Of a stretch of DNA of 33,151 nt, positions 13,792 to 23,636 are shown piece by piece. Source of the DNA: a virus; the IMG/VR virus record IMGVR_UViG_3300017755_000039, positions 1 through 33,151 of that record. The stretch is one strand, 5' to 3'. Both the position numbers and the translations under genes were made by a program. Within the stretch, counting starts at the first letter, position 1, and every line of letters starts with the position of its first letter. Under the pieces are notes generated by a model that was given only the letters and a program-made list of their open reading frames with translations, was not told where the DNA came from and did not search any database.

Positions 13792-16700
13792 ATGCCAGAA
13801 ATTAAACACACGTTTCAAGCCGGTAAAATGAATAAGGATCTAGACGAAAGACTAGTTCCTCAAGGTGAGTATAGAGACGCTTTAAATATAGAAGTGAGAA
13901 CTTCTGATGGAAACGATATAGGTGCTGCCCAAAATCTATATGGTAATCTAGAAAGATTATCGTATGATGAACTTAAAAACCCTATACAACCCACTGTAAA
14001 TAGTGATGGTGAAAAAAGTTATTTTGTAGGATCTATTTCAGATGAGAAAACTAATAACTCTTACTTTTTTGTAGCATCACCTAAAGTTACAAGTATAGAT
14101 CATCCCGCTGAACCAGTTAGGGTTTATAAAGATATGATTATAAAATATAACAGTGACAGTAAGAAGTTGTTTCCAGTGTTTACTGATATATTTAGAGTTG
14201 AAATGCGTGCTGGTATTGCTGAAGGTAGCGTGCATTTAGAAGATATGGGTAGTCAAATCACTCATTATGATCACATAGTCGTGGCTGAAGCGTTAGGAAA
14301 GTACGTTAGGCCTGGTATGTCTATAAATGTGTTAAACGCTACTGGTCAGTCAATCATGGGTACAGATATAGATTTCTATGAATCTTTAAACGGAATGCCT
14401 GGGAGTGTTATTGTTAGAGAGTTCGATCGTAGCACTAGAACAATCTGGTTTGATAGATATGTTATAGGAGACTTAACTCACGCTGCCTGCTTCGTGCTTG
14501 AATCTAATAAAGTTTTAAGATTTTCAAAAAATGGTTTAAAGCAGCATAGTAACTACATATCAGGTGTAAATATTATAAATAACTTATTGCTGTGGACTGA
14601 TAACGTAAACGAGCCTAGGAAGATAAACTTAGATAGATTAAAACAGTCAGCATCTTTTACTATACATTCCGATTTATATATAGATGATCCGTCTACGACA
14701 ACAAATAGTCTTGTAAAACTACAAAACATAGACAAATCCACAGATAGCTCTTACAAAGAAGAACATATAACTCTTATTAGGAGAGCTCCTAGAACCGCAC
14801 CTAAATTGATAATGTCGCAATTTGAGGGTGGAAAAGGAGAATCTTATTCGTCTTCTTGTGTTTTTAATTGGGTTTTAGAGGATGGGGAAAGTTTACCAGG
14901 CATAGATGACACTGTTAAACTTGATACTTTTGATGGAAATGGAAATGCGTTGGGTACCTCTTGTATAGCAGACGGTGATTCATTTTCATCTGGTCAAGTG
15001 TTACAGTTTACTTGTACTACCGAACCTCTAGTAGTAACAGCTGAGGTGCGTGTTACTATGTCTAATGGAGTCCACAGAGTAAAAATAATTAAAATAGACG
15101 ACGAGATAAACAGTTCTCATTTAGAATGGGATATAGAAATTGTTCAAAAGAAATCTATATTTGAAACTACATTTGGTAGGTTTGGTTATAGATATAAGTA
15201 TCAAGATGGAGAATACTCTTCTTTTTCGCCGTGGTCTGAACTAGCTTTCATGCCTAGTAACTTTGATTACTTACCTACAAAAGGTTATAATTTAGGTATG
15301 GTAAACATTATGAGGAGCTTGCAAATAACAGACTTTATTGTAGAGGATTTTCAAAGACCAGATGATGTTATTGCTGTTGATATTTTATTTAAAGATACTG
15401 TATCTCCAAATGTTTACGTAGTAAAATCCATAAGAAGAGGTTACGACGAAGAGTGGAACGATAATGTCGAGGGTAGCGGAAATTCAGGGGTTGTAGATAT
15501 AACTACTGAAATGATACACAAAACTCTCCCATCTTCTCAAACGTTGAGAGCTTGGGATAACGTACCAATAACAGCTAAAGCTCAAGAGGTTACTGGTAAT
15601 AGAATTGTTTTTGCGAACTATGAGCAGAACTATGATACTCTGAGAAAGGTGTTTGTACATCCTACTGTTGAATCCGCCGATCATCCAACAGACTTGAGTC
15701 CTATGAAATCTATAAAGTCTCTTAGGAGATACAAAGTTGGAGTTGTATTTGGTGATAAGTATGGTAGAGAAACACCAGTAATGGGTATAGGTGGTAAGGT
15801 TGTTGGTACGAGAGGCGGTAGTGGTTACGTTCATCTAGGAGATGAAGAAGCTAATCACCATCGAGATCAAACTTTTCCAGACAGCATATCTGTACCTAAA
15901 AATGTTTCATTTAAGGTAAATAAGATTAGTGCTGAGCTAAATTGGGATGGTACTCCTGAAAATTGGATGGAGTATTATAAATATTATATAAAAGAAACCA
16001 GTAATGAGTATTACAATTTAGTTATGGATAGATGGTATCCAGCTGAAGATGGTAATATATGGTTATCTTTTCAATCTTCTGATAGAAACAAAGTAGATAT
16101 AGAAACATATTTAACTTTAAAAAATAAACATGGTAGTGAGGATCCTGTAGAGGAAGATGCTAGATATAAGATATTAGCAATATCAAATGAAGCCCCTAGA
16201 TTTATAAAGAATACTAACAGAATAATAGGTCTTGAAGCGTTATCCAGTGATTCTGGTGTTGATCTAAGTAATACTCTAGGTGTCCAATGTGATTCATGGA
16301 CTGCTTACGATAATACTTTTAAGGATTATAAATTTGAAGGCGTTGGATGGGCTAGAATAGTTGGTACGCTATCAGGTGTTACTAGATTTTCTAAATGGGT
16401 TAGAATAGCTAGACTGCATGATGCAAATAGATCTATAACTGTTGTTGGATCTTTTGGTCCAACAGCTGATATGTCGGGTGATATTAACTTCGGTACTAGT
16501 ACAGGTTTAACTGTTAGCGTAGAGGTTAGAGATTCAGTGGAAGAGAATAGACCAGAGTTTGAAGGTAGATTCTTTGTAAAAGTATTTAAAGATGCTACGT
16601 TAACTAACACTATTTTAGGTACTAATGTAGCAACTTCATCTTATAAAACAGTGTCTTCATATAAAATTGGTTTTGTAGATAGTTCAACAGGGTCAGGTGG

Positions 16701-19700
16701 GTATGGTGGCTACAACCCATCGTCTTGGTCTAGATACCAAGGTGATTATGCGCCAGCTAGTCAGGGTGATGCTGGTATTGCAGATATTAACTATACTACA
16801 TGCGCTGTAGCTGGTGCGGAATGGGGTAGTGGAAACCCCCTTAGTGATTGGTCAAATGCTCTCAACGCTCACAATATACAATCCGGAAATATGTTGGCTC
16901 GTGATCACGGTGGCGCAGGCGCTGAAAACACTAAACAGTTTTGGAAATGGTATTGGAATGTAAACCCTGCGGGTGCTCGTAAGTGGTTTATAGATGGAGC
17001 AAACTGGAATAAAGGAAATAATCAACCTTGTGGAGCTATTAATGGGGATTGGGGTGACGAAAGTGCACTTAATGCTATGGGTACTGAAGGTCCTTTTTCT
17101 GTTGGAGAAGGAGAAATTAATCATATAGCGTTTGGTGCTATGAGAGATGATGAGTGGGATGAAGAAACTTTAGCTTTCCGTGATACGTTAATGCAAGAAG
17201 GTACTTTGTTTAGATTTAAGTCTGATCCCGGTGGTGGAGTAGGTAATGGTGATGGACAGTACACAGGTGACCCCACTATATACGTAGTTAGAGGTACAGA
17301 CATTGACACTGATGATGGTTTTGGACATTCAAAATCAAACTACGGTGGACAACATTCAGGTGGTAACTCGTATTGTCATGAATGTTATGAAGGCGCTAAC
17401 TGGAGTAACGTGTGTAAACGTGGTACATTTAAAGTGTACTTCTCTAGATATGACGACTTTACTAGAGGTTTAGATTTAGATTATTGGGATCCTAGATCAG
17501 CTTTGAGACATGATGGTACTACTATGACCTTTATAGAAATTGTACAATCTAGTTATGACAACACTGATGTACTACAAACTAGTGTTGGTAACGCTATATG
17601 GGAAACCGAACCTAAAGAAGATGTAGGATTAGATTTGTATTATGAAGCAACTAGTGCTTTACCTTTAAAGTTAAATAATTCTAATATACAATCATTTGCA
17701 CCTAATAACACTCCAGTTACATCTGAAAGATTAGATGCTGAAATGACACCGGTATCTTTAGATTACTGCTATATAATGACGCTAGATTTATCAAGTATCC
17801 TCAATAGCGATATCACTATGCCTAACCCTAATTACGTTGCTAAAACTCCAACGGTTAGATATGCTATTAGAGATGTTGTGGGACTAGGTCAAGCAGATGA
17901 TGTGGATGAGGTTACTCGTTATCCTATAGCTATTGGAGATGAATTAAGTTTCAATAGACTTGATGGCACTGTAACTAGGGCTGAAGTTATAGACCACTAT
18001 AAACCTATAACATCATACATTAATCAACAGGCTTACACGGCTATAGAAACCATGGAGGTTGAGGATTCTAATGTTTTTGGGATGTCCAGTGTTCAAGAGG
18101 TGGAAGTTGCTTACCCGTTCAATCCAGCTTCTTATGAGAGGTCATCAAGATACACGTTACAGTGCACTGTTAGTAATTTTAGTAGTCAAAGTATGATAGA
18201 GCTACCTACGGCAGCTTTACCTGACGATTTCAATAGTGACGATGGTAAGATTTGGGAAATAACATGTGAATATCTTGGGATCCGTAAAGGAACTTTTACT
18301 AAAACTATTCAAGATGGAGTCCCAGGTATAGATATTGCTGATTATTATACAACTATATTTTGGCATAATTGCGGTTACAGTGAACAGCAAACCTTAGAAA
18401 GTGGTACTTTTGATATAACATTCAAAGAGGTGACTGGTTATTATAGATTAAATCAAAATGTTTACAACAGTAAAACGACTCTACCTTGGTTTAATTGCTA
18501 TTCCTTTGGTAATGGTTTAGAGTCTGATAGAATACGAGACGATTTTAACGCACCTCAAATAGATAATGGTGTTAAGGTTTCAACTGGGCTTGAAGATTAT
18601 AGAAGAGAAAGAAGGGGTGGTGGATTAATATGGTCAGGTATATATAACTCTACAAGTGGCGTGAACAAGCTTAACGAGTTTAATATGGCTGAAGCTATAA
18701 CTAAAGATTTAAATCCTTCATATGGATCTATACAGGCTTTAAAAACTAGAGATACTAATTTAGTCACATTCTGCGAAGACAAAGTATTGCAAATATTAGC
18801 TAACAAAGACGCTCTATATAATGCAGATGGTAGTTCTAATGTTACAGCTTCTAATGTTGTATTAGGTAATGCTAAGGCGTTTGCTGGGGATTATGGTATA
18901 TCTTCGAACCCAGAGTCTTTAGCTTTTGACGCTTACAGAATATACTTTACAGATAAGCAAAGAGGTAAAGTTCTTAGGTTATCACAAGATGGTTTAACAC
19001 CTATTTCTGATGTTGGTATGTCAAGTTATTTTAGAGAAAACTTAAAACACGCTGATCAGTTGATTGGTACTTTTGATGAAGTAAAAGGTGAGTATAATTT
19101 AACTATTAAATATTTTGACTCATACTTAATATCAAACGAAAATTTAACAGATATAACTGTGTCTTTTAATGAGAAAACTAAAGGTTGGCCAAGTTTTAAA
19201 TCATTTGTACCAGATACTGGCTTGTCTATTAACGCTGAGTATATAACAGCCGCTAATGGTGGTGTTTGGTCACATCACAATAAGGACATACTCCAAACCA
19301 TTAATGGTGTAGAAGAACTAACTGTGCCAGCGAATAATTTTTATGGTGAACAATATAACTCTACCATAGACGTATTATTCAATGAGGATCCTGGAGTTAT
19401 AAAAGGTTTCACGGCTATGAATTATGAGGGTGATCAAGCTAAAACAACTGAGTGGAATCATGCTGGTCATTTAGCTTTAGATGCTAGTGGTGATAGCCTC
19501 GGCTACATTGGAGATGGTGAGTATTACAACTGGCATGGTAAAGATGGTTGGTTCGTAGAGAGTTTTAACACTGATCTTCAAGAATCTTCTGTTTTGGAAT
19601 TTATAAATAAAGAAGGTAAGTGGTTTAGCAACGTTAATGGTATACCTACCACTTTGGATAATTTAGACACTTCTGAATTTACAGTGCAAGGTATTGGTGT

Positions 19701-20739
19701 GGCAAGCGAAGTGGATCTACCCCAAGTTATTGGCTGTATGGATCCTTTAGCATTTAACTATGATCCCGAAGCTACTATTAGCTCAAACAGATGTAGTTAC
19801 GACTTAGAAGGTTGTACAGACCCTAATGCGTTTAATTTCAACGATGCTGCCACTGTAGATGATGGTAGTTGTATAGAGACTGTTTATGGATGTATGGATG
19901 TGGATGCATTAAATTATAATCCAAATGCAAATATTGATGATGGGTCTTGCGAATTCCAAGAGGAAATAAAACGTGGTTGTATGGATGAGAATGCTGACAA
20001 CTATGATGTTAACGCTACTATTCCTTGCCCTGATTGTTGTACTTACACTGCTTATGGTTGTATGGATCCTAATGCTTCTAACTACGATTATTTAGCTCAA
20101 GTAGATGATGGTTCTTGCGTACCTCACGTTGAGGGATGTACCGATTCCATAGCTCTTAATTATGATCCAGAAGCTACCGAAGGTAATCCACTTGCAGACA
20201 CGTGTGTATACAACTCGGGATGTATGGATCCAGACGCTTTTAATTACGACCCGGAAGCTGATACAGAAGAGTTTTGTAAGTCGTATTTTAACGTTGATGC
20301 TAGTGGAATACCTTCTTATAATTGGCAAGCCGCTGTTGACGATGATGATAGTTGCTGCATTCCAGTTATATATGGGTGTATGGATGAAGGTGCAATTAAT
20401 TATGACCCATTGGCAAACACACAAGGATGTCCAGATATAGACAACTTTGGACTCCATGGGTGGGTTGTGCCGGCTGGAGAAACACCTACACCTAACAACA
20501 TCTTGCCTCCTACTTCTCCTGAAGTGGTGGAGCTATACACGCAAGCCGATGGAGTAGAAAATTTCTTGGATGTTTATGATGCTGTATGTAAGTGTATATT
20601 TGAGGTTGGAGGTTGTACTGATCCAACAGCTACGAATTATAACTCAAACGCAACTTTTGATGATGGGTCTTGTGAGTATAAAGATTGGAGTATAAAAATA
20701 GAAGAAATGGGAACACACTTTCCTGATGATGGAAATTAA
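13792..20739 (+). CDS. Giant tail hub/stabilisation protein with C-terminal cysteine repeats
   Basis: A 2315-aa protein. It opens with FQAGKMNKDLDERLVPQGEY and RDALNIEVRTSDG (about 8-40), typical of podovirus tail hub or tail-stabilisation proteins. A conserved core returns late: DKVLQILANKDALYNADG (about 1662-1679), FAGDYGISSNPES, AYRIYFTDKQRGKVLRLSQD, GWPSFKSFVPDTGLS and NFYGEQYNSTIDVLFNEDPG. Between them lies a Gly/Trp/Asn-rich insertion (about 960-1240) with CHEC and a further Cys1208. After the core come nine repeats from residue 1981 to 2296 built on GC(M/T)DPxAxNYxPxAxxDDGSC, two with long insertions. The core probably forms the tail; insertion and repeats are likely surface-exposed host-binding parts, and the DDG turns could bind calcium. 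More than twice the size expected for a T7-like tail protein B. Confidence 0.8.
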   Translation: MPEIKHTFQAGKMNKDLDERLVPQGEYRDALNIEVRTSDGNDIGAAQNLYGNLERLSYDELKNPIQPTVNSDGEKSYFVGSISDEKTNNSYFFVASPKVTSIDHPAEPVRVYKDMIIKYNSDSKKLFPVFTDIFRVEMRAGIAEGSVHLEDMGSQITHYDHIVVAEALGKYVRPGMSINVLNATGQSIMGTDIDFYESLNGMPGSVIVREFDRSTRTIWFDRYVIGDLTHAACFVLESNKVLRFSKNGLKQHSNYISGVNIINNLLLWTDNVNEPRKINLDRLKQSASFTIHSDLYIDDPSTTTNSLVKLQNIDKSTDSSYKEEHITLIRRAPRTAPKLIMSQFEGGKGESYSSSCVFNWVLEDGESLPGIDDTVKLDTFDGNGNALGTSCIADGDSFSSGQVLQFTCTTEPLVVTAEVRVTMSNGVHRVKIIKIDDEINSSHLEWDIEIVQKKSIFETTFGRFGYRYKYQDGEYSSFSPWSELAFMPSNFDYLPTKGYNLGMVNIMRSLQITDFIVEDFQRPDDVIAVDILFKDTVSPNVYVVKSIRRGYDEEWNDNVEGSGNSGVVDITTEMIHKTLPSSQTLRAWDNVPITAKAQEVTGNRIVFANYEQNYDTLRKVFVHPTVESADHPTDLSPMKSIKSLRRYKVGVVFGDKYGRETPVMGIGGKVVGTRGGSGYVHLGDEEANHHRDQTFPDSISVPKNVSFKVNKISAELNWDGTPENWMEYYKYYIKETSNEYYNLVMDRWYPAEDGNIWLSFQSSDRNKVDIETYLTLKNKHGSEDPVEEDARYKILAISNEAPRFIKNTNRIIGLEALSSDSGVDLSNTLGVQCDSWTAYDNTFKDYKFEGVGWARIVGTLSGVTRFSKWVRIARLHDANRSITVVGSFGPTADMSGDINFGTSTGLTVSVEVRDSVEENRPEFEGRFFVKVFKDATLTNTILGTNVATSSYKTVSSYKIGFVDSSTGSGGYGGYNPSSWSRYQGDYAPASQGDAGIADINYTTCAVAGAEWGSGNPLSDWSNALNAHNIQSGNMLARDHGGAGAENTKQFWKWYWNVNPAGARKWFIDGANWNKGNNQPCGAINGDWGDESALNAMGTEGPFSVGEGEINHIAFGAMRDDEWDEETLAFRDTLMQEGTLFRFKSDPGGGVGNGDGQYTGDPTIYVVRGTDIDTDDGFGHSKSNYGGQHSGGNSYCHECYEGANWSNVCKRGTFKVYFSRYDDFTRGLDLDYWDPRSALRHDGTTMTFIEIVQSSYDNTDVLQTSVGNAIWETEPKEDVGLDLYYEATSALPLKLNNSNIQSFAPNNTPVTSERLDAEMTPVSLDYCYIMTLDLSSILNSDITMPNPNYVAKTPTVRYAIRDVVGLGQADDVDEVTRYPIAIGDELSFNRLDGTVTRAEVIDHYKPITSYINQQAYTAIETMEVEDSNVFGMSSVQEVEVAYPFNPASYERSSRYTLQCTVSNFSSQSMIELPTAALPDDFNSDDGKIWEITCEYLGIRKGTFTKTIQDGVPGIDIADYYTTIFWHNCGYSEQQTLESGTFDITFKEVTGYYRLNQNVYNSKTTLPWFNCYSFGNGLESDRIRDDFNAPQIDNGVKVSTGLEDYRRERRGGGLIWSGIYNSTSGVNKLNEFNMAEAITKDLNPSYGSIQALKTRDTNLVTFCEDKVLQILANKDALYNADGSSNVTASNVVLGNAKAFAGDYGISSNPESLAFDAYRIYFTDKQRGKVLRLSQDGLTPISDVGMSSYFRENLKHADQLIGTFDEVKGEYNLTIKYFDSYLISNENLTDITVSFNEKTKGWPSFKSFVPDTGLSINAEYITAANGGVWSHHNKDILQTINGVEELTVPANNFYGEQYNSTIDVLFNEDPGVIKGFTAMNYEGDQAKTTEWNHAGHLALDASGDSLGYIGDGEYYNWHGKDGWFVESFNTDLQESSVLEFINKEGKWFSNVNGIPTTLDNLDTSEFTVQGIGVASEVDLPQVIGCMDPLAFNYDPEATISSNRCSYDLEGCTDPNAFNFNDAATVDDGSCIETVYGCMDVDALNYNPNANIDDGSCEFQEEIKRGCMDENADNYDVNATIPCPDCCTYTAYGCMDPNASNYDYLAQVDDGSCVPHVEGCTDSIALNYDPEATEGNPLADTCVYNSGCMDPDAFNYDPEADTEEFCKSYFNVDASGIPSYNWQAAVDDDDSCCIPVIYGCMDEGAINYDPLANTQGCPDIDNFGLHGWVVPAGETPTPNNILPPTSPEVVELYTQADGVENFLDVYDAVCKCIFEVGGCTDPTATNYNSNATFDDGSCEYKDWSIKIEEMGTHFPDDGN
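19732..20679 (+). repeat. Nine cysteine-rich repeats in the tail protein C-terminus
   Basis: Protein repeats begin at residues 1981, 2007, 2033, 2062, 2089, 2115, 2143, 2195 and 2274 of the tail protein. Normal unit length is 26-29 residues; unit 7 is 52 and unit 8 is 79 because of inserts. The frame GC(M/T)D..A.NY...A...DDGSC is kept in most, with a Cys near each end. At DNA level the core TGTATGGAT recurs in six units, but the rest has drifted. Confidence 0.92.
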
Positions 20740-20750
20740 TATAAAAATAT

Positions 20751-23237
20751 ATGGCGCATGCAATAGAGATTGATGGAGTGTGGACTCAGTCCACTGCTCC
20801 TCACGATGAACTTTTACGACACTGCAAGACAGTTATTGCAAATTCGTTTCCAGTAAGTTATGGTGGAACTCTCCCAAGTGGTATAATTGAATTGTTTATA
20901 GTACCTGACGATGGTTTTGCTATCAATGCATTGGATTTCGAAAACAAGACGTTGTCGACATACAATGATCACCCTGAGTTATTTAATCACAACCCAAGCG
21001 ATTGGTTAATGGTTAATGAAAACACTAACGGTTTTCAAGATGGTGTAAGATTCACTAATACTAACTCGGCAGCTGATTCACCAGGGTCCCAGTGGGTCGC
21101 GGGTAACCAAGTTAAAGCTGAAGTGATGCTTGATAGTTCTTATGTACCCACTAGCGACATGAATCTTCAGTTAGATTTCTATAATAAAAATGCCGTTAAT
21201 TTAACCGCTCTACCTAGAAGTGTAACTATAGCTTTTATAGAGCCAGTAACACTTGCACAAGAGATACAATCAAATTTCTCCGGCCATCCCCGCACAGGCG
21301 TCTTTAATATAGTACCAGCAGAGGGGGTTACTCACTATAGCGCAAGATTACAAGACAATATACCCAGTGAATGGGGAAATCCACGATTCCATAGTCCCCA
21401 AAGTGTAGGCGCGAGTAACGTCTCTTCTATTGACTTGAACGGAGTAGAAACTGATTACACATACCTTTCAGGAAATAATGGTAACCCTTATATACATTAT
21501 CTCACGACAGATGTAGTAGTTGATGAGACAACTCAATTAGGTGAACCAAAAGTTTTAGCTAATATAAGTATAGGGTTTGAGTTAGAGTATCCAAGCAGTT
21601 GGAATGGTCATCAAAGAGTTAAAGATTTCTACTCAAGTACTGTAGCTCCAAATTGGGGTGCTCAATTAGTTTTTGGTTTTGCCAAAGAAGGTGGTACTGA
21701 CGATTTTGAAACCAACCCCGCAAAATGTGTTCAAATACTACCACACGATAACGTTCTTGAGTCCAATAACTACGTTGACGAAAATCACCCGAGTAAGTTT
21801 TCTCAACAAAACATTAAAATTACAAGTACGGTTAACGGCATGAGGTATGTTGGTGTTGGAAATTCAACTAATGAAACTGTGGTAACCGGAATTAGTTATG
21901 ATTTAGTTTTTACGGAAAATTATAACAATTTAAAACCAGAGAATTGCGTGGGTTGTAATTATGATTCTAATTCCACCAGTCTTTTAAATAGTGAACACCC
22001 AATTGGTGGAGATGGTACGCCTGTTTTGCAATACGCTAGTATCAATGGTGGGGATTCATCGTATGATGGATATATGCTTGGTTTCGAAAGTGAGGGGACA
22101 AACGAACCTCAACCTGCCGGATACTGGAACGATAACCTAAAGGGTTATTTTTGGAACTTAAATTATACATGTGGTCAAGGATGGTACACAGATATGTTTT
22201 CAATGTATTTTGGTTCTCCGGCCACCAGGAATAATGATTATGCAGTTCAGGGAGAAAAACAATTTGCTATAAGAAATATTAGAACTAACTTCAATAAAAT
22301 AAGTGGTAGTAAGTCTAGTAACATGATACCATCGGGAGGTGTTGTCAATGGTAGGGGTGAGATCACTGTACTAGGAGATCCCGGTGCCCAATTTAAAGTG
22401 TTACTTAAAGAGGTAGAATCTGGAATCAATGACTCAGACACAGCACAAACAGGTGTGAGCAAGTCGGGTGGGTATGCGACAGCCGATATAACTGCTAGTA
22501 TACTTAATGGTGGTGAAGTTAAAGGTATGCCAACAGGTTTCATTAAAATACCTAGTTCTGGTGCTTATGTAATTAAATTACCTGAAATAGAGAGGTTAAA
22601 ATCTCAAGATGTCTTTAAAGTTTTTGAACTACATTTAGTGGCTAGTTCGAATACAAAGATATTAAATTCAGCCTTAAACGGGGGTGGAGTACTTAAGAAA
22701 CCAACTATACAAGGGTCAGATAGAACCTCTAATGCAAGTGCAGTGTTAATAAACAAATATTATCAATACCCTTTAGTTGGCGTTAAGTTCAATGCTTTAA
22801 ATCATGGAGGTGCTGCTTTTAGCGTGGGTTATAGACCTATAGACATCAAACCTTTTGGTGGAAGGTCAATACTTGCAGATCAAAATAGTTATGGAGCCAA
22901 ACCATTATCTAAATCTGGACAAACTAAAAGCTTTCAATTTAGACAGAGAAAAGGTGGTGCTACTTTTTCAATCAATACAACAGTACTGACACCTAATTAT
23001 GCTGCTGATGGAACAACAGTTGCTTACTACTCTATACCTTCTAAGTTTTTTACTGAATCAATAAGAAACAATGGAGAAAAGTATGTTATACAAGCTAGAG
23101 CACATATTGGCGCTGGATTACAAGATACCTCTTCTGTTGCTGATTGTACTATAGATATTCAGGTTAGGTTGTTAAAATATGGTAAACTACCGCAGGAATT
23201 GACTATTGATTTCAAAGAAATATTTATTGAATCTTAA
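20751..23237 (+). CDS. Probable tail fibre or tail appendage protein
   Basis: An 828-aa protein, predicted nearly all beta with many Asn, Ser, Gly and Thr, as in phage fibres. It has no recognised enzymatic motif. The middle contains ENCVGCNYDSNSTS (about 400-413), a Cys pair vaguely like the tail repeats. From about residue 540 a modular beta unit appears (GRGEITVLGDPGAQFKVLL, then SSGAYVIKLPEI), resembling a small Ig-like module I associate with marine phage tail proteins. The end (LPQELTIDFKEIFIES) is compact. It starts 11 bases after the giant tail protein and is followed 12 bases later by a small tail-associated protein, so the three probably assemble together. Receptor binding is likely but unproven. 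Confidence 0.65.
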   Translation: MAHAIEIDGVWTQSTAPHDELLRHCKTVIANSFPVSYGGTLPSGIIELFIVPDDGFAINALDFENKTLSTYNDHPELFNHNPSDWLMVNENTNGFQDGVRFTNTNSAADSPGSQWVAGNQVKAEVMLDSSYVPTSDMNLQLDFYNKNAVNLTALPRSVTIAFIEPVTLAQEIQSNFSGHPRTGVFNIVPAEGVTHYSARLQDNIPSEWGNPRFHSPQSVGASNVSSIDLNGVETDYTYLSGNNGNPYIHYLTTDVVVDETTQLGEPKVLANISIGFELEYPSSWNGHQRVKDFYSSTVAPNWGAQLVFGFAKEGGTDDFETNPAKCVQILPHDNVLESNNYVDENHPSKFSQQNIKITSTVNGMRYVGVGNSTNETVVTGISYDLVFTENYNNLKPENCVGCNYDSNSTSLLNSEHPIGGDGTPVLQYASINGGDSSYDGYMLGFESEGTNEPQPAGYWNDNLKGYFWNLNYTCGQGWYTDMFSMYFGSPATRNNDYAVQGEKQFAIRNIRTNFNKISGSKSSNMIPSGGVVNGRGEITVLGDPGAQFKVLLKEVESGINDSDTAQTGVSKSGGYATADITASILNGGEVKGMPTGFIKIPSSGAYVIKLPEIERLKSQDVFKVFELHLVASSNTKILNSALNGGGVLKKPTIQGSDRTSNASAVLINKYYQYPLVGVKFNALNHGGAAFSVGYRPIDIKPFGGRSILADQNSYGAKPLSKSGQTKSFQFRQRKGGATFSINTTVLTPNYAADGTTVAYYSIPSKFFTESIRNNGEKYVIQARAHIGAGLQDTSSVADCTIDIQVRLLKYGKLPQELTIDFKEIFIES

Positions 23238-23249
23238 TAATAAAAAAAT

Positions 23250-23636
23250 ATGCCTACTCTTACATTAGAATTCCTACATAATATAAACATCTCGGCTCAA
23301 GTTGGTGACACTGCTTATTTCGTAAACTCAACATCACCTTCACTTTATGATTTTGGGATGCAAGGCCAAGGTTCTGATATAGTAGAACTTGGTCCTATAA
23401 CAGCTATAAATATCTCTACAGCTAACCATGTAACAAAACAAAGCATACAGGTTTTAGTTTTAGGCAGTGTACAACAACCTAATCCTAATCAAAGCTTGAT
23501 ATTGTTTAGTAAAGATAATGCTGTTAACATGTCTTCTCCGCTTGGATATTTTGCTAGAGCAAAAATAGTTAATGACTCGAAAGTAAAAAGTGAGATTTTT
23601 TCTATTGCTTGCGAAGTGTTTGAGAGTAGTAAATAA
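23250..23636 (+). CDS. Small tail-associated protein, unknown function
   Basis: A 128-aa beta-rich protein. Recognisable blocks are NISAQVGDTAYFVNS, ELGPITAINIS, SLILFSKDNAVNMSSPLGYF and a final IFSIACEVFESSK. Small proteins ending '..LFSKDN.VN.SS.LGY.A..K..N.S..K.E.FS...E.FESSK' commonly follow fibre genes in uncultured marine phages. It could cap or chaperone the fibre encoded just before. Function is not established; the call rests on context and remembered pattern. Confidence 0.7.
   Translation: MPTLTLEFLHNINISAQVGDTAYFVNSTSPSLYDFGMQGQGSDIVELGPITAINISTANHVTKQSIQVLVLGSVQQPNPNQSLILFSKDNAVNMSSPLGYFARAKIVNDSKVKSEIFSIACEVFESSK

Follow-up and report, generated by a model that had tools for sequence, protein, structure and literature searches.

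The window analysed here, a stretch of 33,151 nucleotides of viral DNA, contains on its plus strand an open reading frame (13792..20739) encoding a protein of 2315 amino acids, including an array of cysteine-containing repeats towards its C-terminal end. The assignment of this protein as a muzzle protein of the crassvirus gp44 type was based on Pfam, PHROG and Foldseek matches together with gene order. The Pfam family crAss_MUZ_C (PF25729) matched at 19330..19449 on the plus strand (residues 1847-1886) with 31.1 bits, above its gathering cut-off of 27, and the conserved muzzle core extends past this match to about residue 1975, at a VQGIG motif. PHROG 14478 matched the protein with an E value of 1e-110, and the TerL, portal and capsid-block genes lie upstream in the same order as in Cellulophaga phage phi38:1. 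The AlphaFold model of residues 1539-2315 was poor overall (mean pLDDT 58.8), with values above 70 in much of the propeller part and in units 1-6 of the array; the best solved chains found for it by Foldseek, to be read with that mean pLDDT in mind, were those of the phicrAss001 muzzle (7qok_A, E 3.5e-9; 7qol_P, E 1e-8). Z scores of 15.0 and 15.1 were given by VIA to phicrAss001 muzzle chains, the next being podovirus nozzle chains at 12.5. The match to gp44 came by fold; a profile search of PDB sequences for gp44 gave 0 matches at 0.01.

We conclude that the product of the open reading frame is a muzzle protein of crassvirus type, which forms the gate of the tail tip, and by analogy with phicrAss001 it would be expected in six copies per virion. 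In phicrAss001 six muzzle chains are described as forming the end of the tail, with a loop of the propeller acting as gate; the tip of the muzzle is proposed to contact the cell surface, and muzzle length is stated to vary through insertions (PMC10172136). The annotated records nearest to the window phage belong to the Pervagoviridae, the Pachyviridae and Elemovirus, and the phage is referred to here as crass-like only, with no order assigned. Of the solved chains, phicrAss001 gp44 (PDB 7qok, 7qol) is the closest to the propeller part of the window protein, which carries the crAss_MUZ_C domain; unlike gp44, the window muzzle has an array and a terminal strand after its core.

The array occupies 19732..20673 on the plus strand (residues 1981-2294) and is made up of nine GC(M/T)D....N(Y/F) units starting at 19732, 19810, 19888, 19975, 20056, 20134, 20218, 20374 and 20611. 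All nine fit the pattern GC[MT]D....N[YF], which is found nowhere in the rest of the muzzle protein, and shuffling the tail 2000 times produced not a single unit; chance or composition was therefore rejected as the source of the array, and the nine GC(M/T)D units of the original prediction are where it had placed them. It had also described the units as ending in DDGSC, which is exact for units 2, 3, 5 and 9, with units 1, 4, 6, 7 and 8 deviating, and had the protein itself ending in repeats, which is incorrect, as a further 21 residues ending WSIKIEEMGTHFPDDGN lie beyond unit 9 (20674..20736, plus strand). These residues, here termed the terminal strand, were recognised by comparison of 81 muzzle ends and are present in many relatives, both with and without repeats. 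An insert of about 29 residues with CC at its end lies in unit 7 (20269..20355, plus strand) and one of about 52 residues in unit 8 (20431..20586, plus strand). The extra-cysteine inserts previously remarked upon in these two units are hence present, but additional cysteines are not restricted to them, unit 4 holding CPDCC. In total there are 24 cysteines in the tail of the window muzzle. No DNA-level tandem repeat was reported in the array region, for which reason the units are taken to be old and diverged.

The canonical unit is 21 residues in length, with conserved cysteines at positions 2 and 21 plus acidic residues, which would be candidates for the disulphide and calcium sites suggested in the original prediction, and a three-unit AlphaFold model built from 71 natural arrays reached a mean pLDDT of 88. 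No family in Pfam, NCBIfam or PHROG credibly covers the array. Thrombospondin type 3 repeats were considered and rejected, there being no Pfam TSP_3 match in the window tail, in five related tails or in the window units. For the three-unit model VIA returned nothing at a Z of 2 or more, and the only Foldseek matches were to the EGF-like hinge of Perforin-2/MPEG1 (6u2j, 6u2k and 6u23; one unit, 48% identity over 29 columns, probability 0.87-0.97, weak E values of 0.4-1.1); the same hinge gave the only PDB sequence matches, at a likewise weak E value of 0.12. This likeness should be treated as a lead and not as proof of homology, and nothing on disulphides of the perforin-2 bead was found in the literature available in text. 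One such unit is also reported in the maize chloroplast protein PIFI (PMC4650667).

Downstream of the muzzle gene, also on the plus strand, lie the genes for d1 (20751..23237), a partner protein of 828 residues, and for d2 (23250..23636), identified by hhalign as a separate gene for the last muzzle domain of phi38:1 and the elemo phages. A profile of the window d2 and its relatives (42 rows) matched the last domain of phi38:1-type muzzles with an hhalign probability of 98.5 (E 3e-15), and the window core aligned to the stretch just before that domain (E 1e-27). Since core and d2 are found back to back on one phi38:1-type protein, the muzzle gene has been split in the window group, and it is at this split that the array and d1 are located. 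The muzzles of phi38:1 (gp97) and of the Flavobacterium elemo phages are homologous to that of the window and lie in a like gene order; however, they are 1324 and 1493 residues in length, hold no repeats, and have a core which continues straight into a contiguous last domain, whereas in the window that domain is a separate gene, and d1 is missing between the muzzle and the next gene in these phages. A frame shift joining muzzle and d1 was considered and rejected, as the frame of d1 opens no earlier than 20745, past the muzzle stop codon at 20737-20739, with no overlap of frames. In Cellulophaga phage phi13:2, gp121 (L286:2992-3714) corresponds to the C-terminal part of a muzzle encoded as a separate gene, as does L287:2992-3795. 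This break lies at a different place from that of the window, and the muzzle gene has been split more than once.

In a comparison of 81 muzzles the end of the core was found close to VQGIG, and many of the proteins end soon after in a short strand, which is found without repeats in, for example, L010 and L044, and after repeats in L009, L033, L047 and the window. As the strand follows the core whether or not repeats are present, the array sits between core and terminal strand in these phages. At the place of the array relatives have short linkers, Thr-rich linkers with one unit (L033) or other domains, and among the 76 relatives in which the muzzle ends inside the locus the tail is under 60 residues in 35, 60-299 residues in 14 and 300 residues or more in 27. 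No gene lies between muzzle and d2 in 15 of the 62 records, window included, in which d2 was found; in 12 of these 15 the tail has homologues among the d1-type proteins that other relatives encode separately, two (L075 and L085) have tails which hold repeats, and the tail of L069 matched nothing. That relatives have the two fused suggests joint action of d1 and the end of the muzzle. The window d1 had no family match, and a whole-length relative of it was found in one record only (L301); BLAST showed no direct homology between it and the tails of L053 and similar phages, in which a d1-type domain is fused; what they share is their position. In L058 and L067 the same d1-type protein as in these fused tails is broken at another point.

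The distribution of the repeats was followed in the best 80 of 168 muzzle loci and on a tree of 59 of 81 muzzle cores, those left out being mostly near-copies. A muzzle was scored as bearing repeats if it had one canonical or two loose units, L085 being scored as repeat on account of its loose units and L051 as none. Scored in this way, repeat tails are found in 16 of the 59 muzzles and the other 43 are without, so that the array must be considered dispensable in the family. About seven gains or losses are needed on the tree, as against 14 in shuffles, and at least four are forced by well supported branches. One clade comprises the window, L008, L009 and L011, with arrays in all of them; the repeats are accordingly retained in the three nearest relatives on the tree, and the original prediction, for which their loss in close relatives would have been damaging, stands on this point. 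Within the sister clade L010, L015 and L018 are without units, and L012 and L021 are without a tail array but hold units in an internal loop (residues ~1390-1450 and ~1400-1455, respectively). This place corresponds to about residue 1425 of the window protein and constitutes a second insertion site; lying between the IWETEPKED motif and the propeller return, the loop is probably part of the IG2 or crass region.

When the window is compared with L008, units 1-8 each match the same-numbered unit and unit 9 does not. The dN/dS ratio between the two was 0.08 for the muzzle core, 0.28 for units 1-6, 0.41 for d1 and 0.58 for the unit 8 insert, which at 36% identity is the fastest changing piece; the unit 7 insert is 52% identical over 21 aligned of its 29 residues. 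The suggestion made at the outset that the inserts are diversifying is supported in so far as the inserts, like d1, change faster than the core, but a dN/dS below 1 is no proof of diversifying selection. A freely length-variable spacer is not seen in this nearest pair, in which units 1-8 pair one to one, although the counts do differ in more distant relatives. The muzzle identity, the terminal strand, the split gene and the separate secreted bead protein of related phages (described below) had not been part of the original prediction, whose receptor binding and mimicry are to be taken as proposals.

A search of a bacterial genome collection returned 96 relatives of the array, of which 78 loci were kept, mostly titled as marine Flavobacteriales. 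The unit was present in every one of the 12 genomes of one family, in 68 of 196 of its order and in 7 of 296 of its phylum; odd single titles (Woesearchaeota, Rhodobacteraceae, Myxococcales) may be binning errors, many of these genomes being MAGs. TIGR04183, the T9SS type A sorting domain, was present in eight of the nine host proteins scanned, these being nine of 41 complete open reading frames on host MAG contigs, which agrees with the earlier claim that a conserved tail protein has been joined to a repeat typical of proteins secreted by marine Bacteroidota. The unit pattern is nearly alike in muzzles (55), separate phage proteins (106) and hosts (924), and the 21-residue unit and spacing in the T9SS cargo of marine Flavobacteriales match those of the window. 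The cargo differs in having a signal peptide and a T9SS sorting domain, neither of which was matched in the window muzzle tail; NCBIfam gave no match for the muzzle at 19720-20736, and the type A sorting domain TIGR04183 expected at the C-terminus of T9SS cargo is thereby not seen in the muzzle itself.

The unit is found somewhere in 32 of the 80 muzzle records (14/40 and 18/40), and in 16 of the 80, including 13 of the 23 that are at least 45 kb long, there is a separate open reading frame of GCxD units encoding 586-1084 residues (L298:7714-9963, minus strand; L299:7334-9583, minus strand; L300:6271-9513, plus strand; and L302-L314). A signal-peptide-like start was read by eye in all 16 of these bead proteins. 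Five of them score over the TIGR04183 cut-off (G002, G012, G032, G034 and G068), ten others end in a shorter tail resembling that of host protein L260 or L278, and in G027 the frame is cut off by the contig end; L047 also exceeds the cut-off, but inside a muzzle tail, and was excluded from the count. Both a muzzle array and a separate bead protein are present in L008, and the window ends before the region where the latter would lie. In the three records examined the bead gene lies in a late cassette, its neighbours (named by eye) being secreted thioredoxin-like, outer-membrane-barrel-like and endolysin-kind peptidase-like proteins. The thioredoxin-like protein encoded next to the bead gene, which is small and secreted (L298:5705-6043, minus strand; L300:5898-6269, plus strand), apparently lacks CxxC, again by eye. 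That units were recently copied from muzzle to bead protein or back within one genome was considered, but is unsupported by the ranks of the own-record protein (4, 2, 1, 1 and 11 of 16). T9SS-domain proteins in phages had been reported before in one crAss-like cluster (PMC6949934), and a phage-encoded T9SS cargo is described for Cryophage (PMC7468147). The related phages studied here resemble Cryophage in encoding T9SS-sorted proteins; the cargo of Cryophage, however, consists of enzymes and a PA14 protein, with no bead repeats reported in the available text of that paper. Three GCxD units were also seen in an open reading frame of Marine virus AG-345-P14 (L289:3586-5140), a member of the Kyanoviridae, maybe in a fibre or other structural protein.

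On balance, we favour the reading that the array is a host-type bead stalk which serves in contact with the host surface at the tail tip, and hold this to be somewhat more likely than not. The muzzle identity, split gene, insertion point, d1-type fusions, repeated gain and loss and second site were all computed, as was the sharing of the unit with T9SS cargo of hosts and with further phage proteins; copy number, outward display, disulphides, d1 docking, adhesion and host are inferred. Cysteine beads would have been grafted at an insertion-tolerant point, after the core and before the terminal strand, which coincides with the split from d2 and with the variable d1, whether encoded separately or, as in relatives, fused. 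Six muzzle chains with nine beads each would project beside the tail tip and touch a Flavobacteriales cell at many points with low affinity. The outer layer of such a cell likely holds T9SS-exported proteins built from that same bead and would offer either the bead itself or its ligand. Such weak contacts would keep the tip in place for the time the crass domain needs to find its trigger, and the beads would separate the terminal strand from the tail, and probably d1 as well. As a virion protein, the muzzle would fold in the reducing cytoplasm, so that its disulphides, if any, would be formed after lysis; disulphides are reported in the tail barrel and fibre hubs of phicrAss001 (PMC10172136). 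Against this reading stand the poor overall quality of the model, the dispensability of the array in the family, the finding that the units in the muzzle are not clearly closest to those of the bead protein of their own record, and, for d1, the lack of a family match and of BLAST homology to the fused tails.

A plainer account, to which we would give perhaps one chance in four, is that the beads bind nothing themselves and form a stiff spacer by which the terminal strand and d1 are kept at a given distance from the muzzle. The location of the array between core and terminal strand is consistent with such a neutral stalk, as are the short linkers, Thr-rich linkers with one unit or other domains which take its place in relatives, and the variation in repeat number among them. 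However, the one to one pairing of units 1-8 between the window and L008 indicates position-specific upkeep, the internal loop of L012 and L021 holds units yet carries no terminal module, and the use of a host-surface-type unit would have to be a coincidence. It is also conceivable, though we consider it doubtful, that one bead system operates on both sides of the infection, in which the bead at the tail tip would make contact with a host surface composed of this same bead and the secreted bead protein, exported late by the host T9SS and encoded beside lysis-type genes, would occupy contact sites on host or debris, thereby freeing progeny or excluding rivals.

Mimicry or cover is considered unlikely: the tail would resemble the host surface or compete with host beads and so escape surface layers or decoys, with the separate bead protein blocking superinfection. 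The presence of the unit in host T9SS cargo and in signal-peptide-bearing phage proteins (16/80 records) fits this, as does the superinfection exclusion proposed for the T9SS cargo of Cryophage (PMC7468147), but in many relatives the separate protein occurs without a muzzle array and in some the reverse is true. Very unlikely is a clamp, in which, once the cell has lysed, cysteine beads would cross-link the six muzzle chains to one another and so stabilise or gate the hexamer; the number of tail cysteines and the disulphides of phicrAss001 noted above would suit it (PMC10172136), but few or no cysteines are found in the tails of most related muzzles, from which it follows that gating needs none, and the two cysteines of the canonical unit would most simply pair within the bead. 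Equally improbable is that the array is a passenger, host DNA picked up by recombination and of no present function, for while the gains and losses are scattered, it has been kept throughout the clade of the window, L008, L009 and L011, the dN/dS of units 1-6 indicates constraint, and units occur at two sites plus a second gene.

The bead stalk for surface contact, as the favoured reading, has a partial precedent in the BACON tandem repeats found near crAssphage tail genes, for which binding to the host surface is proposed (PMC6949934). These resemble the present case in that host-type repeat domains have been taken into tail-associated proteins of crAss-like phages, but BACON is an Ig-like domain as opposed to a 21-residue cysteine bead and is not placed on the muzzle in that account (PMC6949934); no BACON match was found in the window muzzle or tail. 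Host-type tandem repeats near crAss-like tail genes are thus already known (PMC6949934), as is variation in muzzle length. The open-licence literature searched yielded no report of the bead on a muzzle, of a muzzle split here or of such phages encoding a secreted protein made of beads. The muzzle serves as gate in a phage group that ranks among the most abundant, and it is of some consequence for how it may sense a cell that comparison within the family shows where on it surface modules of host type are plugged in and swapped. A bead for which neither Pfam nor NCBIfam has a model links phage tails, phage-secreted proteins and the host T9SS cargo of uncultured marine Flavobacteriales, and provides both a candidate for host contact that can be tested and a sequence signature by which these phages might be linked to their hosts.

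A further muzzle tail among the relatives, that of L056 (L056:11663-14944), is Cys-rich, over 1000 residues in length and bears a Hint (intein-type) domain at its end (PT-HINT, E 1e-9). The muzzle end of L059 resembles it; self-processing of a tail-tip protein, which these Hint ends bring to mind, would be unusual.
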